Of a stretch of 39,974 bases of DNA, positions 20,451-36,232 are shown piece by piece; positions within the stretch are counted from its first letter, which is position 1, and each line of letters opens with the position of its first letter. Origin of the DNA: an uncultured Eubacteriales bacterium (GTDB lineage: Bacteria > Bacillota > Clostridia > Oscillospirales > Oscillospiraceae); NCBI GenBank assembly GCA_900320465.1, contig ONSQ01000009.1, positions 1 through 39,974 on the forward strand, in the 5' to 3' direction. Under the pieces are notes generated by a model. It was not told the origin of the DNA. It saw only the letters and a program-made list of their open reading frames with translations, and did not search any database. The position numbers were made by a program, and so were the translations under genes.

Positions 20451-22964
20451 TCAGAAATCCTTTGTCAGATACCGTCCGGTGAGACTGTCCGGACAGGCGG
20501 CGATTCTCTCCGGCGTGCCCTGGGCCACGATCCTGCCGCCGCGTACACCGCCGCCCGGACCCATGTCGATCACATAGTCCGCGTTGCGGATCACGTCCAG
20601 ATCGTGTTCGATCACGATCACCGTCGCGCCGTTGTCGATCAGATGTCGGAACACCTGCAGGAGCGTCTGCACATCCAGCGGGTGCAGACCGATGGTGGGT
20701 TCGTCGAACACAAAGACGCTGTCTGACTGGCCGCGGCCCATCTCGCTGGCCAGCTTCAGCCGCTGGGCTTCGCCTCCGGAGAGACTGGGCGTCTGTTCCC
20801 CGAGTGTCAGATAGCCAAGCCCCAGTTCGCTGAGCACCCTGAGACGCCGGACCACCAGGGGCAGGTCACCGCATACCGCGAGCGCTTCGTCCACACTCAG
20901 CGCCATCAGCTCCGGCAGAGACAGGGCTTTTCCGTTTCCCTTCGCCGCCCGGCGGATAAAATACGCGTCTTTGGCGTAGCGCGAGCCGTGACAGTCCGGG
21001 CAGGGGATATCCACGTCCGGCAAAAACTGCACGTCCAGGCTGATGGAGCCGGTGCCGTCACAGGTAGGACAGCGCAGTGAACCGGTGTTGTAGGAGAAGT
21101 CTCCCGCCTTGTGGCGCCGGGCTTTGGCGTCGGCAGTACGGGCGTAGACCTTTCGCAGCTCGTCGTGGACGTCGGCATACGTGGCAACGGTGGATCGCAC
21201 ATTGATACCGATGGGCGTGGCGTCAATGAGCTTCACCTGCGCAATTCCCTCTGCCGTGATCTCCCTCACATGCGCCGGAAGCTTCTGCCCTTTGACAGTG
21301 GCCTCCAGCGCGGGGATCAGGCTTTCCAGAACCATCGTGGTCTTGCCGGAGCCGGATACGCCGGTCACGGCAATGAGACGCCCCTTGGGAAAGTCCACAT
21401 CCAAAGGCTGCACAGTGTGGATTTGAGACGTAGACAGATGGATCCGCCCCTGGGCGAACAGGTCCTGTTCCGCAATGCAGGGGCGCGCCTGGATGGATGC
21501 GCTGCCGGACAGAAAACCGCCGATGCGGGAGTTGGGGGTTCGTGCCACCTCGTCCACGCTGCCTTGGGCAATAACGGTCCCGCCACCGGCGCCGGCCTCC
21601 GGGCCCAGCTCGATGAGCCAGTCGGCTTCTTTGAGCACATTGGTGTCGTGATCCACCAGAATCACCGAGTTGCCGTCGGCAAGAAGATCGCGCATCACAC
21701 CGCGCAATCCCTCCAGATTGGCCGGGTGCAGACCGATGGAAGGCTCGTCGAGTACATACAGGACGCCGGTGGTGCGATTGCGCACGGCGCGGGCCAGCTG
21801 CATCCGCTGCCGTTCGCCGGTGGAGAGCGTAGAGGCTGCCCGATCCAGCGTCAGATAGTCCAGCCCCAGCTCCATCAGCCGTCGGGCCGCGTCCTGGAAG
21901 GACTCGCCGATGCGCTCGGCCATGGGACGCATCTCCTCCGGCAGAGAGGCCGGAACGCCGTCCACCCAGTCCACAAGCTCGGAGAGCGTCATCGTGCAGG
22001 CCTGGGCCAGACTGATGCCCCGCAGCAGGGGAGCACGTGCTGCGTCAGACAGGCGCGTGCCGCCGCATTCCGGGCAGACGCTCTGCTTCAAAAACTTCTC
22101 GACCCGTTTCATGCCCTTTTCGTCCTTGACCCTGGACAGGGCGTTTTCCACGGTGTAGGTGGCGTTGAAATAGGTAAAGTCCATGTCGCCTGCGGCGCCG
22201 CTTGTTTTGTTCTGATAGATGATATTCTTCTTTACGGCCGGTCCGTGAAAGACGATGTCACGCTCTTTCTCGGTCAGTTGGCAGAAGGGCACGTCGGTTC
22301 GCACGCCCATTTCCCGGGCAATATCCTTCATCAGAGACCACATCAGCGTCTGCCAGGGGGCCACGGCGCCCTCGTCGATGCTCAGCGATTCATCCGGAAC
22401 CAGCGTGGACTCGTCCACCGTGCGCACGATACCGGTGCCGTCGCAGCACTTGCAGGCGCCCTGACTGTTGAAGGCCAATTCCTCCGCACCCGGGGCGTAA
22501 AAGCTGACACCGCATTCCGGGCAGACAAGAGGCCTGTCCGCAGCCACGTTTACGGACGGGGGCACGTAGTGACCGTTGGGGCAGCGATGGCTGCCCAGAC
22601 GGGAGTACATCAGGCGCAGACTGTTGAGGAGCTCCGTCCCGGTCCCGAAGGTACTGCGAATACCGGGCACGCCGGGACGCTGGTGCAGCGCCAGCGCGGC
22701 GGGCACATACAGCACCTCATCCACTTCGGCCCGGGTGGCCTGCGTCATCCGGCGGCGTGTATAGGTGGACAGCGATTCCAGATACCGGCGTGAGCCCTCG
22801 GCATACAGAATGCCCAGGGCCAGCGAGGACTTGCCGCTGCCGGATACGCCAGCGATCCCGACCAGCTTGTGGAGGGGAATGTCCACATCCAGATTCTTGA
22901 GATTATGAACCCGCGCGCCACGAACTTCGATCCGCTCCGGCGCGGGGATGTTTTCACTCTTCAT
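20451..22964 (-). CDS. UvrA-like excinuclease ATPase, short form
   Basis: An 837-residue ABC-type ATPase with two nucleotide-binding halves: Walker A GVSGSGKSS (about 40) and GVSGSGKTT (about 545), signatures LSTGERQRMQLARA and LSGGEAQRLKLASE, Walker B LDEPSIGLHP and FDEPTIGLHP, plus cysteine pairs of the zinc modules (CPECGVSFY, CKCCDGTG, CPTCDGTG, CPDCHG). It is about 100 residues shorter than canonical UvrA (about 940), mainly in the first half where the UvrB-binding region normally lies, so it belongs to the UvrA2/DrrC-like branch linked to DNA-drug adduct tolerance. The ATG follows GGAGGTTGAT. It is the last gene of a minus-strand operon with an alkyltransferase-like gene and rsmG, a DNA-damage grouping. 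Confidence 0.92.
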   Translation of the reverse strand: MKSENIPAPERIEVRGARVHNLKNLDVDIPLHKLVGIAGVSGSGKSSLALGILYAEGSRRYLESLSTYTRRRMTQATRAEVDEVLYVPAALALHQRPGVPGIRSTFGTGTELLNSLRLMYSRLGSHRCPNGHYVPPSVNVAADRPLVCPECGVSFYAPGAEELAFNSQGACKCCDGTGIVRTVDESTLVPDESLSIDEGAVAPWQTLMWSLMKDIAREMGVRTDVPFCQLTEKERDIVFHGPAVKKNIIYQNKTSGAAGDMDFTYFNATYTVENALSRVKDEKGMKRVEKFLKQSVCPECGGTRLSDAARAPLLRGISLAQACTMTLSELVDWVDGVPASLPEEMRPMAERIGESFQDAARRLMELGLDYLTLDRAASTLSTGERQRMQLARAVRNRTTGVLYVLDEPSIGLHPANLEGLRGVMRDLLADGNSVILVDHDTNVLKEADWLIELGPEAGAGGGTVIAQGSVDEVARTPNSRIGGFLSGSASIQARPCIAEQDLFAQGRIHLSTSQIHTVQPLDVDFPKGRLIAVTGVSGSGKTTMVLESLIPALEATVKGQKLPAHVREITAEGIAQVKLIDATPIGINVRSTVATYADVHDELRKVYARTADAKARRHKAGDFSYNTGSLRCPTCDGTGSISLDVQFLPDVDIPCPDCHGSRYAKDAYFIRRAAKGNGKALSLPELMALSVDEALAVCGDLPLVVRRLRVLSELGLGYLTLGEQTPSLSGGEAQRLKLASEMGRGQSDSVFVFDEPTIGLHPLDVQTLLQVFRHLIDNGATVIVIEHDLDVIRNADYVIDMGPGGGVRGGRIVAQGTPERIAACPDSLTGRYLTKDF

Positions 22965-33334: not shown

Positions 33335-33410
33335 GGGGGCGTAGCTCAGCTGGGAGAGCGCCTGAATGGCATTCAGGAGGTCAACGGTTCGATCCCGTCC
33401 GTCTCCACCA
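33335..33410 (+). tRNA. tRNA-Ala (anticodon GGC)
   Basis: A 76-base tRNA with encoded CCA. The acceptor GGGGGCG pairs with CGTCTCC and includes the G3-U70 wobble pair that alanyl-tRNA synthetase recognises. The D-arm is GCTCAGCTGGGAGAGC; the anticodon stem CCTGA/TCAGG holds loop ATGGCAT (anticodon GGC, reading GCC/GCU); the T-arm contains GGTTCGATCC. It has its own promoter and terminator. Its 3' half is copied in the repeats that follow. Confidence 0.97.
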
Positions 33411-33477
33411 AAATGAAGTACTTGCGAAAGCAAGTGCTTCTTTTTTTATTTTCGCTTCGAACCGTTGACCTCCTGAA
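33372..33477. repeat. Inverted repeat of the tRNA anticodon/T-arm segment
   Basis: Bases 33372-33392, inside the tRNA, are perfectly complementary to 33457-33477, a 21-bp inverted repeat with the terminator hairpin between the arms. The inverted arm recurs at 33635-33655. A transcript reading through the terminator could fold back on the tRNA 3' half. Confidence 0.85.
33415..33447 (+). terminator. Terminator of tRNA-Ala
   Basis: GAAGTACTTGC, GAAA loop, GCAAGTGCTTC, then TTTTTTT: an 11-bp stem with one wobble, 4 bases after the CCA end. Confidence 0.93.
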
Positions 33478-33503
33478 ATAATAAATGAGGCCGCCGATGG
33501 CGG

Positions 33504-33563
33504 CCTGGCTGACCGAAGGTCAGACAGGTCAACCCTGGCTGACCGAAGGTCAGACAGGTCAAC
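33504..33563. repeat. Perfect tandem repeat, 2 x 30 bp
   Basis: CCTGGCTGACCGAAGGTCAG plus AACAGGTC-like tail (30 bases in all) occurs at 33504-33533 and again at 33534-33563 without change. Each unit contains the small hairpin CTGACC-GAA-GGTCAG. The second unit runs into copy B of the 128-bp block. Confidence 0.85.
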
Positions 33564-33592
33564 GGTTCGATCCCGTCTGTCTCCACCCAAAA

Positions 33593-33625
33593 GAAGTACT
33601 TGCAAAAGCAAGTGCTTCTTTTTTT
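33593..33625 (+). terminator. Duplicate of the tRNA-Ala terminator
   Basis: The same stem-loop and seven-T run as at 33415-33447, with one loop base changed, exactly 178 bases downstream in the duplicated block. It follows a tRNA 3'-end remnant, not a whole gene. Confidence 0.85.
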
Positions 33626-33749
33626 ATTTTCGCTTCGAACCGTTGACCTCCTGAAATAATAAATGAGGCCGCCGACGGCGGCCTGACGCAAGGAAGCTAT
33701 GCCGTGTTGCTGATCTTGTAATTGTGCGCTGCTGGGCCCGAAACGCGCC

Positions 33750-33778
33750 TTGACAAGCGCCGTGGGGAATGGCAAAAT
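33750..33778 (+). promoter_or_regulatory. Promoter of the deaminase-SLOG gene
   Basis: A perfect TTGACA (33750-33755), a 17-base spacer and CAAAAT (33773-33778), 28 bases before the start at 33806. Confidence 0.65.
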
Positions 33779-33805: not shown

Positions 33806-36232
33806 ATGATCTTTTTTCAGCAGTTCTATCTGGACAGAGAAAAAGACCTGGCGGTTGACCTTTACATGGAAGGGGAGCGCCTGGACTATGTCATCCGCAC
33901 GCCCAACCATCGCTCCGGCAATCTGATCTGCAACCTGGCCCGGCTCTGCGAGCTTCAGACCGATGAGGACGAGAACGGTTTGAAGGTCATCCGCGGCGAA
34001 ATCCCCAGCTATTATGACGGGGACAACCGGAAAATGTATATCCTGCGCCTGGGCAATACCAAGATCGCGAACATCTATCCCGACGGGCGTGTAGAGCTCA
34101 AGGCTTCTATCCCCGCTATCTCCAAGACGCTGATGAGCCAGACCAAGGATTATCGGCTGGGCGTTGAAAAGACCATCGTCAAAACCTACATCCGGGGCGA
34201 GTGCAAGTTCCGAACGGATCTGCATACCCATATGAACGGCAATCTGCCGCCCGATGCGCTGATTGCTCTGGGCATCACGCATCAGATCCGCTATCCTTAT
34301 TATTATATCAAGAAGCTTTCGCTGCGCTGTACCGCGAGCCAGATCGCCGCACTGGAGGAAAAGCGAAAAGCGGCGGAGGCCTCACTGGGCGAACTGAATC
34401 TGACCGGCAAGCACCGTGAGAGGCGCATCGACGACTATACCTTTATCAATTTTGCCGAGCTCATTTTAGGCAATCCCGCCGACGCCGCCTATAACATCGG
34501 CCGTATCCGCAACTCCCTTACCATCCCCAAGGATGGACAGGCTGTTTTTGCAGACCTGGAAAAGGTATATCTGTATCGCTACGTTTTCACAAAGGGCGTG
34601 GCTTCGGATGAACCTCTAAGCGGTATCAGCATTTCCGCCATCCCGGATCGGGAAGTGGGCGCCTATGCCGAGCAGATGCTGCGCGACAGGGAGGACGATC
34701 GCTACCGCGGCAATACGCTCTTCCAGGATCTGCTGCTGTGGATCGCGCGGGAATACCGGCGACACGGTATCGTGTATGCGGAAATCACGGACACTGCGCT
34801 GTTAAATGGAGCGATCTTCCCGGATCGGCTGCGGCAAATCCACGAGATCATGCCCATGGTCACCCGGGAGACGGGCGTGGTGCTGCGCTTTCTGGCGGGC
34901 ATCCGCCGCATCCCTCTGACGATCGTGCGCGATCATGTGACGCCCAACGATTATCTGGCTGACAATATGCGCTGCCTGCGCGTCATTGCCGCTGACCCCT
35001 ATGTGGCGGGCAGCGACATCATCGGCGAGGAGATCAACGATATTCTGGAGCTGCGCAGCGTCATCCGGGAACTGGTGCGTATTGCCGGCGAGCATCCCGG
35101 CTTCGTGATCCGCGTGCACGCCGGGGAGAACGACAGCCTGCGCGACAACGTGGCCAACAGCATCCGTTGTGTCGCTGAGGCGCTGGAACCGGGCCAGCCT
35201 TTCCCGCCCATGCGCATCGGCCACGGACTGTATACCTGCGATCTGCACTCGCCCAAGGGCAGACGCCTGCTGGAGGAGATCCGCCGCTGCGGCGTCACCC
35301 TGGAGTTCCAGATCACCTCCAACGTGCGTCTCAACAACCTCAGTCATCTGAACCGGCACCCGCTGCGCGAATATCTGGCCGCCGGCATCAGCTGTGTCCA
35401 GGGAACGGACGGCAGCGCGCTGTACGGCACCAACTCCATCGATGAAGAACTGAGTCTGGAAAAGCTGCTGGGCCTGCGCTTTGACGAGCTGTGCGAGATG
35501 CGGCGGGCGGAGGATTCTATCCTGGAAAGCAGTCTGCACACCTTCCACAACAAGCTCGGCGCGTTCCGCGAGTCGTTCTCCGGCGGCGATATCGGGCTGT
35601 ATTACGAAAACCTGCTGCGCTGCGCCGAGACAGGGGAAAGCGGACTCTGGACCTCCCGCGTCAAGTACGATGCGGCGCGATCACTCGCGGACAGGATCGC
35701 GGAACTGCCGACGGATAGCTTGCCGGTGATCATTGCGGGCGGGAGCTTCAATAATTCCAATCACCGCTCGCGCATGACCGAGAGCGATAAGGCCATCCTG
35801 GACAGCTTCGTGGAAAGGGCGGATCCGACAAAGGTCTTTTTTGTCGTGGGTCACTCACTCAGCGCGCAGGAGGGATACCTCGTGCGTCGGGCGGCGGAGC
35901 GCTTTACCGTCTTTGCTATCGTTCCCTCGGCTCTGAGTGCTGCGGAGCTGGGACGACTGAAAAAAGCGGGCGTGTCTGTCCGCATCGCCACGGAGAGCGT
36001 GGGTATGGGCCTGTACAAGAGCTTTTCCGACGAGATCTTTCGCCGGATGCCCTCGGTGCTGCTGGCCTTTGACGGCAACTCCGCTGCGCTGAATCTGATC
36101 CAGGAGGCGCGAAACGGGCAGGAGAAGTGCCGCATCTATATCAATGCGCGCTCGCGCCGTCTGGCAGCCAAGGCGCGTATGCTGGGCGGTTACGTCCGGC
36201 CCATCCAGGAGGCGCCTGAACGGGAACTCTGA
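33806..36232 (+). CDS. Large adenosine deaminase-like protein fused to a SLOG-like nucleotide-binding domain
   Basis: An 808-residue protein in three parts. Residues 1-130 are a beta-rich domain I do not recognise. Residues about 135-620 are an adenosine deaminase-like metal-dependent barrel with insertions: HTH (H140, H142), VHAGEN (H438, E441), RIGHG (H473) and GTDG (D535) supply the zinc ligands and catalytic residues. Two usual substrate contacts differ: the HLDG aspartate is N144 and the second aspartate of TDDP is G536. Residues about 638-795 look like a YspA-type SLOG fold (VIIAGGSF, VVGHSLSAQEG, LLAFDGNSAALNLI). SLOG domains bind nucleotides or ADP-ribose derivatives and occur in conflict systems. 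RdrB of the RADAR phage defence is also a large divergent deaminase, but no RdrA-like ATPase is adjacent. Start at 33806 follows GAGAGGAG. Confidence 0.85.
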   Translation: MIFFQQFYLDREKDLAVDLYMEGERLDYVIRTPNHRSGNLICNLARLCELQTDEDENGLKVIRGEIPSYYDGDNRKMYILRLGNTKIANIYPDGRVELKASIPAISKTLMSQTKDYRLGVEKTIVKTYIRGECKFRTDLHTHMNGNLPPDALIALGITHQIRYPYYYIKKLSLRCTASQIAALEEKRKAAEASLGELNLTGKHRERRIDDYTFINFAELILGNPADAAYNIGRIRNSLTIPKDGQAVFADLEKVYLYRYVFTKGVASDEPLSGISISAIPDREVGAYAEQMLRDREDDRYRGNTLFQDLLLWIAREYRRHGIVYAEITDTALLNGAIFPDRLRQIHEIMPMVTRETGVVLRFLAGIRRIPLTIVRDHVTPNDYLADNMRCLRVIAADPYVAGSDIIGEEINDILELRSVIRELVRIAGEHPGFVIRVHAGENDSLRDNVANSIRCVAEALEPGQPFPPMRIGHGLYTCDLHSPKGRRLLEEIRRCGVTLEFQITSNVRLNNLSHLNRHPLREYLAAGISCVQGTDGSALYGTNSIDEELSLEKLLGLRFDELCEMRRAEDSILESSLHTFHNKLGAFRESFSGGDIGLYYENLLRCAETGESGLWTSRVKYDAARSLADRIAELPTDSLPVIIAGGSFNNSNHRSRMTESDKAILDSFVERADPTKVFFVVGHSLSAQEGYLVRRAAERFTVFAIVPSALSAAELGRLKKAGVSVRIATESVGMGLYKSFSDEIFRRMPSVLLAFDGNSAALNLIQEARNGQEKCRIYINARSRRLAAKARMLGGYVRPIQEAPEREL

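Follow-up and report, generated by a model that had tools for sequence, protein, structure and literature searches.

Which substrate is acted on by an adenosine deaminase-like enzyme in which both substrate aspartates have been replaced, and what does a SLOG-like domain at its C-terminus contribute? The question is raised by an 808-residue protein of a gut bacterium, an uncultured member of the Eubacteriales (family Oscillospiraceae), encoded in a stretch of 39,974 nucleotides (GenBank assembly GCA_900320465.1, contig ONSQ01000009.1) that is referred to here as the window. From N- to C-terminus, the protein consists of a beta-rich part, a zinc deaminase core, and a Rossmann-like domain. The explanation preferred here, given about an even chance of being right on the combined basis of sequence, structural models, and analogy, is that the protein may be a stand-alone, ligand-regulated deaminase of adenine nucleotides, which would follow the logic of Cad1 with a SLOG domain substituted for the CARF domain. 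The features that carry this reading are a complete catalytic set, the loss of both aspartates throughout the family, fusion to a SLOG-like domain devoid of the LOG motif, and the lack of a constant partner.

A_deaminase is the sole Pfam match of the window protein; the match is above the cut-off (Table 1), and its best stretch spans residues 313-566. An earlier note on the window had read in this frame the zinc and catalytic residues H140, H142, H438, E441, H473, and D535. That observation is confirmed: the residues supply the HxH, HxxE, H, and D of the PF00962 fold within the barrel core, and all six are unchanged in every one of the 98 sequences aligned (the alignment includes the window and a distant relative at locus L133, and at least one contig was fetched twice). 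The altered substrate residues that the note had pointed out prove to be a family trait. With window positions mapped to mouse ADA numbering by motif, the HLDG aspartate (residue 144, Asp19 of mouse ADA) is replaced by Asn in 95 sequences, Ser in two, and Ala in one, and is never Asp; the second aspartate of TDDP (residue 536, Asp296 of mouse ADA) is Gly in all 98.

The AlphaFold model of the full protein (Table 1) has as its top solved Foldseek matches deaminases of the Plasmodium, snail AMP, and bacterial adenosine types (expectation value, E, of about 1e-9); for the top ten, the template modelling (TM) score to the target is 0.50-0.73 and the root-mean-square deviation is high. Cad1 chains stand at ranks 31 and 48-50 among the best 50 matches, and N6-methyl-AMP deaminases are present among the matches of the core. 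That the protein is an ordinary purine-salvage adenosine deaminase with extra domains is very improbable. The Pfam match above the cut-off agrees with this view, and no separate A_deaminase protein is found in 25 of the 27 sampled genomes of the window's genus that carry the gene (incomplete genomes); both substrate aspartates, however, are lost across the aligned family, the canonical equivalog model TIGR01430 gives 38.8 bits against a cut-off of 216.55, and the best NCBIfam adenosine-deaminase model gives 39.9 bits against 426, with equivalog cut-offs spanning 216.55 to 549. Of the 61 genomes sampled from the genus, 5 have a stand-alone A_deaminase protein, including 2 of the 27 that carry the fusion; 31 of the 34 non-carriers also have no A_deaminase match, so the genus seems not to need this activity.

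The strongest hint to the substrate is a match of positions with TaqCad1, a CRISPR effector, which is an analogy and not a proof. TaqCad1 and its close homologues differ from canonical ADA at exactly the Asp19 and Asp296 positions; the TaqCad1 counterparts, Gly264 and Asn549, are among the residues that recognize ATP, and the enzyme deaminates ATP and not AMP, ADP, or N6-methyl-AMP, with low activity on adenosine (PMC12669630). The N549D and N549D/G264D variants show no reaction with ATP, and the double variant has raised, but not rescued, adenosine deamination (PMC12669630). Because the pocket of the window protein and that of this ATP-acting enzyme share the two altered positions, a nucleotide rather than adenosine is, by analogy, the probable substrate. 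At E ≤ 1, the window protein matches a single PADLOC model, the Cad1-type CARF5--CARF_ADA (1.1e-4), which also matches 44 of 54 family members at 0.01 or better (best 1.2e-8). The alignment covers model positions 339-552 of 605, that is, the deaminase part alone, and the protein has no CARF match.

The C-terminal domain, modeled separately (residues 612-808, 86 sequences), is predicted with a local distance difference score (pLDDT) of 89.3 and a predicted TM score (pTM) of 0.88. Its best Foldseek matches are TRPM8, TRPM2, and TRPM4, followed by YvdD, YgdH, LOG, and Moco carrier proteins (E of 2.5e-4 to 0.017; Foldseek probability 0.96-1.00 for TRPM8/2/4, YvdD, YgdH, and LOG). The fold evidence thus upholds the proposed fusion of a deaminase to a SLOG-like domain; the domain looks closer to the TRPM and LOG chains listed nearest to it than specifically to the YspA type that had been suggested. 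By sequence, membership of the SLOG superfamily is weak, via the distant relative L133 and under the curated cut-off: taken as a fragment, the C-terminus of L133 aligns at 8.8e-4 with positions 13-158 of the 195-position model PF18171 (LSDAT_prok; SLOG in TRPM, prokaryote). The LOG motif PGGxGTxxE is found in 0 of the 98 aligned sequences; this excludes the protein from the LOG phosphoribohydrolases, LOG-type nucleosidase activity is rejected, and the absence of the catalytic motif suggests that the domain is probably ligand-binding.

A metabolic role would have the enzyme take the amino group, plain or substituted, off an adenine nucleotide of an unusual or modified kind, such as an N6-modified AMP, with the SLOG-like domain holding or channeling the nucleotide. 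LOG-like SLOG domains use AMP-containing substrates, often modified adenines (PMC9503650), and LOG is among the fold matches of the C-terminus, as N6-methyl-AMP deaminases are among those of the core. The missing LOG motif counts against this alternative, as do the fact that most genomes sampled in the genus and the class lack the gene and the absence of a widely recurrent neighbor family of any kind, and it is considered improbable, although the sampled neighbors are mainly of transport, cell-wall, and regulatory types, as described below.

In adenosine deaminases, a zinc-bound water is activated and attacks C6 of adenine. The preferred reading, deamination of an adenine nucleotide under ligand control, would keep this chemistry, with the zinc-bound water activated as in other adenosine deaminases and attacking C6 of the adenine. 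Once Asp19 and Asp296 have given way to Asn144 and Gly536, a free 5'-OH would no longer be gripped, and the pocket could accept an adenine nucleotide that carries a 5'-phosphate (ATP/dATP, ADP-ribose, or similar). A small nucleotide-type ligand would bind to the SLOG-like domain and switch the deaminase on or off; an ADP-ribose-like ligand is the leading guess because of the TRPM resemblance.

Several points weigh against this reading. The family has Asn and Gly where TaqCad1 has Gly and Asn, a likeness by position only, so the chemistry need not match; and restoring the aspartates in TaqCad1 did not rescue adenosine deamination, which indicates that the two positions are not the whole story. 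A profile search of the PDB reached ordinary adenosine deaminases and, at 0.29, an adenosine-deaminase-like protein, but not Cad1. The SLOG assignment is by fold, with E ≤ 0.001 in four matches and TM scores to the query of 0.43-0.58 for the TRPM and LOG chains; the best 50 matches include unrelated proteins at lower probability, and the part of TRPM aligned to the domain is presumed to be the SLOG region. The C-terminus of the window protein itself matches no SLOG model, and searching PDB sequences with either the C-terminal profile or the L133 C-terminus returned nothing meaningful. The PF18171 match of L133 falls to 0.0069 for the whole protein, and its 19.0 bits (fragment) or 16.1 bits (whole) lie under the curated 25.4.

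The N-terminal part had been thought to match nothing familiar, and indeed no Pfam family covers its roughly 130 residues. AlphaFold predicts a beta-rich unit well over residues 1-100 (pLDDT of 81-91 per block) and residues 101-130 poorly (45-62); residues invariant among 54 sequences include D10, E12, K13, D14, T32, P33, H35, G38, and N39. The deaminase core carries an extra stretch between H142 and H438, recognized by comparison with published zinc-residue spacing: the zinc residues are H152, H154, H498, and H530 in RdrB (PMC9994260) and H243, H448, H472, and D533 in Cad1 (PMC11645235). Under the correspondence of residues inferred here, RdrB is also split by an insertion at this place and Cad1 seemingly is not. 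That the N-terminal domain, together with the insertion in the core, would form the oligomer is a guess.

Among known systems, Cad1 (CAAD), the adenosine deaminase that type III CRISPR systems carry fused to CARF, resembles the window protein in fusing a zinc deaminase core to a Rossmannoid domain and, for TaqCad1, in the alteration of both the Asp19 and Asp296 positions. It differs in that its CARF domain is N-terminal while the SLOG-like domain is C-terminal, in having about 91 fewer residues between the zinc histidines (H243-H448 compared with H142-H438, if these correspond; PMC11645235), and in the residues at the two substrate positions. No CRISPR link was seen in the sampled neighbors, in which one CARF-nuclease-like protein among 148 was found and nothing recurrent (CRISPR loci were not searched genome-wide). 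RdrB of RADAR shares an N-terminal extension and a core-splitting insertion (H152/H154 to H498, here H140/H142 to H438; PMC9994260), so this much of the comparability to RdrB put forward by the earlier note stands. PADLOC, which presumably holds an RdrB model, listed none and gave the CARF-ADA model alone, and the family has no constant neighbor and hence no RdrA-type partner (RdrA was not searched by itself). The word 'SLOG' does not occur in the RADAR paper (PMC9994260). ThsA of Thoeris (SIR2-SLOG) likewise joins an effector enzyme to a SLOG sensor (PMC9503650, PMC12948488), but its effector is an NADase and not a deaminase, and its TIR partner is not recurrent here. The SLOG region of TRPM and the prokaryotic LSDAT family (PF18171) resemble the C-terminal fold and match L133 weakly by sequence; the window domain differs in lying below sequence detection and in having no channel. 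Canonical ADA (TIGR01430), ADGF/ADA2, and the AMP and N6-methyl-AMP deaminases have the core fold and the zinc and catalytic residues in common with the family, which lacks the substrate aspartates and has extra domains at both ends. A deaminase-SLOG fusion is not described in the titles and abstract openings searched (a coverage largely without subscription papers), although a 2015 survey of nucleotide-centered conflict systems may mention one; the word 'deaminase' is absent from a SLOG-rich review (PMC9503650). The deaminase-SLOG family is real and conserved, and it is filed neither as Cad1 nor as RADAR.

A scan of GTDB species genomes gave 205 related stretches, of which the best 80 were used. 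By their record titles, read by eye, 30 are of goat, sheep, deer, water buffalo, or yak gut, 33 carry RUG isolate names (rumen genomes), and 17 name no host. The gene is present in 27 of 61 sampled genomes of the window's genus (window included; G005 and G019 are fragments) and in 8 of 23 good-quality ones, compared with 59 of 61 for glycyl-tRNA synthetase (named by eye), used as a core-gene control. The distribution is patchy, which supports the accessory character suggested by the earlier note. In a class sample, 13 of 391 genomes match at 1e-6, comprising 11 full-length proteins (with the window), one distant relative (L133, in genome G725), and one frame of ordinary deaminase size; in a phylum sample, 20 of 398 genomes match, and full-length copies are limited to the window and one more. 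L133 encodes 783 residues in a genome of another order and matches window residues 8-682 with E 2.6e-51 and 23% identity; its C-terminus is about 17% identical to that of the window protein, and its N-terminal part is shorter and weakly alike. In the order of G725, 5 of 200 genomes match this distant relative (itself counted), the other four being of the window's type. The L133 gene (9226-11577 of its locus), a very distant deaminase-SLOG-like protein with TRPM-like glycine loops, lies in a 1.2-Mb genome, has a tRNA to either side, and is close to a gene that by eye looks Nudix-like. Locus L162 (contig C53 of genome G1030) holds a second, partial family copy (47% identity, residues 521-798) beside the full-length copy in the genome.

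When relatives are divided into clades by identity of their glycyl-tRNA synthetase to that of the window, the gene is found in 10 of 22 genomes in the nearest clade, 1 of 21 in the second, and 14 of 15 in the third (58 of 60 relatives had a value, some from fragments; the gene carrier G1030 had none). G033 and G019, both of the nearest clade, have copies of only 55-56% identity; that of G033 clusters with a copy from another family (support 1.00), and the copy of G897 is distant from those of G913 and G991, two other species of its genus. The clade pattern and misplaced copies look like inheritance within groups and exchange between groups, and contamination of metagenome-assembled genomes could be behind some of the exchange cases. 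No full-length copy is present in plasmid records, where the one match, weak and partial, is to an add gene; the window protein matches nothing in phage records or viral contigs, and L133 nothing in plasmids or phages. In PHROGs, the window protein has no match, and L133 has one, weak and of unknown function.

These distributions bear on whether the protein is a one-gene anti-phage effector, in which a nucleotide signal of infection would act on the SLOG-like domain and ATP/dATP would be converted to ITP/dITP with arrest of the cell, as for RADAR and Cad1. The superfamily also includes RdrB and Cad1, for each of which ITP production is reported (PMC9994260, PMC11645235), the same two positions are altered as in TaqCad1, and the SLOG domain of Thoeris senses an ADP-ribose-type signal (PMC9503650, PMC12948488); patchiness in the genus and apparent exchange between lineages fit as well. 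The gene is, however, near-universal in the third clade, where four loci have housekeeping-type neighbors in common, and no full-length copy lies in the phage, plasmid, or viral collections. Neighboring genes, called with a codon model trained on the family gene (the DNA is GC-rich), offer no constant partner among 112 loci (a set with some duplicates and short contigs): the most frequent family within three genes, of generic ABC-transporter ATPase look, is present at 12 loci, and all others at 7 or fewer. PADLOC models at 1e-10, applied to proteins of 80-620 residues (148 of 231 clusters within two genes of the gene and 148 of 294 clusters at a distance of at least six genes), number 21 near and 6 far, a difference in favor of the effector, although each model is hit in a single protein. 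By name, the near models are mostly generic or several for one apparent protein; seven or eight seem to stand for one CARF-nuclease-type protein and two for one of cysteine-desulfurase type, so that perhaps about 11 proteins are involved, and AriA-, CapH-, and DRT-type names appear once each. No clear excess is seen near the gene, though a modest one may exist. Among Pfam families of near neighbors (the first 25 of 183), transport, peptidoglycan/cell-wall, and regulatory families lead.

The idea that co-occurrence shows a TIR-made ligand was rejected: 18 of the 27 carriers and 18 of the 34 non-carriers have TIR_2 proteins, which is no clear association (Fisher p = 0.31). At L153 (contig C5 of genome G1014), and at this locus alone, a TIR-domain gene lies about 2 kb upstream of the deaminase-SLOG gene; of the loci that share the downstream genes of L153, L159, read by eye, lacks a TIR gene at the three positions upstream, and the contig of L166 extends over just one upstream gene. 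These loci belong to the third clade, in which L153, L159, and L166 share methyltransferase-like and pyridoxal-enzyme-like genes, an S21-like small protein is common to these three and L167, and a leucyl-tRNA-synthetase-like gene to L159 and L167 (names by eye); the remaining loci of the clade have different neighbors. A defense role is thus not borne out by context, and the anti-phage effector is rather unlikely.

Table 1. Features of the deaminase-SLOG locus, with positions in the window
Feature	Position	Strand	Evidence
Whole gene, deaminase-SLOG fusion, 808 residues	33806..36232	+	Open reading frame; Pfam A_deaminase 3.5e-13; AlphaFold mean pLDDT 84, pTM 0.77
N-terminal beta-rich domain, residues 1-130	33806..34195	+	No Pfam match; predicted strands
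Deaminase-fold core, about residues 136-570; H140, H142, H438, E441, H473, D535; N144 and G536 at the substrate aspartates; extra stretch between H142 and H438	34211..35515	+	Foldseek; conservation counts
SLOG-like Rossmannoid domain, about residues 635-801	35708..36208	+	Separate model; Foldseek; PF18171 match of distant homologue
Promoter-like site TTGACA-17-CAAAAT, TG ahead of the second hexamer; its end is 28 nt upstream of the start	33750..33778	+	Pattern scan
tRNA-Ala (GGC), neighbor, outside the system	33335..33410	+	ARAGORN
Tandem duplication of tRNA 3' end and terminator, two 141-nt copies	33378..33696	+	Repeat search

The gene begins with ATG and its stop codon closes the frame (Table 1); a GAGGAG-type site precedes the ATG, and the majority of homologues begin at the residue aligned with the window start. 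TTGACA-type promoter-like sites number 5 in the region compared with 1.8 expected in shuffled sequence; sites resembling that of the window are seen by eye upstream of the gene in L073, L020, and L021, and a 9-of-12 match occurs in the 90 nt upstream at 27 of 80 loci, a rate without a chance control. Eight of 80 loci (L048, L049, L052, L053, L055, L057, L059, and L074), which lie in one clade of the family tree, have ATC at the start-aligned codon after a ribosome-binding-like site. In the three of these that were checked (L052, L053, and L055), a stop lies two codons upstream of the ATC, so no start is possible further upstream; the rare start codon may keep expression low in the eight loci.

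The tRNA-Ala upstream, with its duplicated ends, had been regarded as a typical site for accessory genes. The duplication is present, its two copies being 93% identical and 178 nt apart with no other gene between them, but a tRNA is not the usual neighbor: it is seen in 6 of 89 loci scanned and within about 1.1 kb of the gene in 3 (L073, L133, and L142), and with loci of unequal length from draft genomes, no preference for tRNAs is shown. The two copies are both on the upstream side of the gene, and the window contains no third one when up to 3 mismatches are allowed, so the gene is not flanked as by insertion sites, and integration at the tRNA is rejected. The same kind of tandem duplication of a tRNA-Ala 3' end and terminator is seen by eye at about 8930-9280 of L073, a near relative. 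Elsewhere in the window, the UvrA-like protein at 20451-22964 (reverse strand) was dropped as a core-gene control, as close copies are found in a minority of 60 relatives and the rest have a more distant UvrA; several close homologues of this protein have one in-frame stop (TGA, TAG, or TAA) in the matched stretch, although the open frame is nearly full length.

Overall, the altered deaminase, the SLOG-like fusion, and the accessory character of the first reading of this locus stand, the tRNA site and defense from context are not supported, and the SLOG type looks closer to TRPM/LOG than to YspA. Conversion of ATP to ITP as an immune output has been reported for RADAR and Cad1, both of which depend on a partner (RdrA and a CRISPR signal, respectively; PMC9994260, PMC11645235). 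It is a tentative and somewhat doubtful proposal that the family consists of partner-free, ligand-gated deaminases of ATP (or ADP-ribose), with a TRPM-like SLOG domain in place of the CARF domain of Cad1, acting as a one-protein immune or stress switch that would poison or re-tune the nucleotide pool with inosine nucleotides. If metabolic instead, the protein would still be a deaminase of unknown substrate that appears as a plain 'adenosine deaminase' in Pfam-based annotation. If the preferred reading is true, a self-contained deaminase with its own SLOG-like domain, encoded by dozens of Clostridia genomes, would add a third design to RADAR and Cad1 and offer a simple one-protein system for asking what ligand a bacterial TRPM-like SLOG domain binds.

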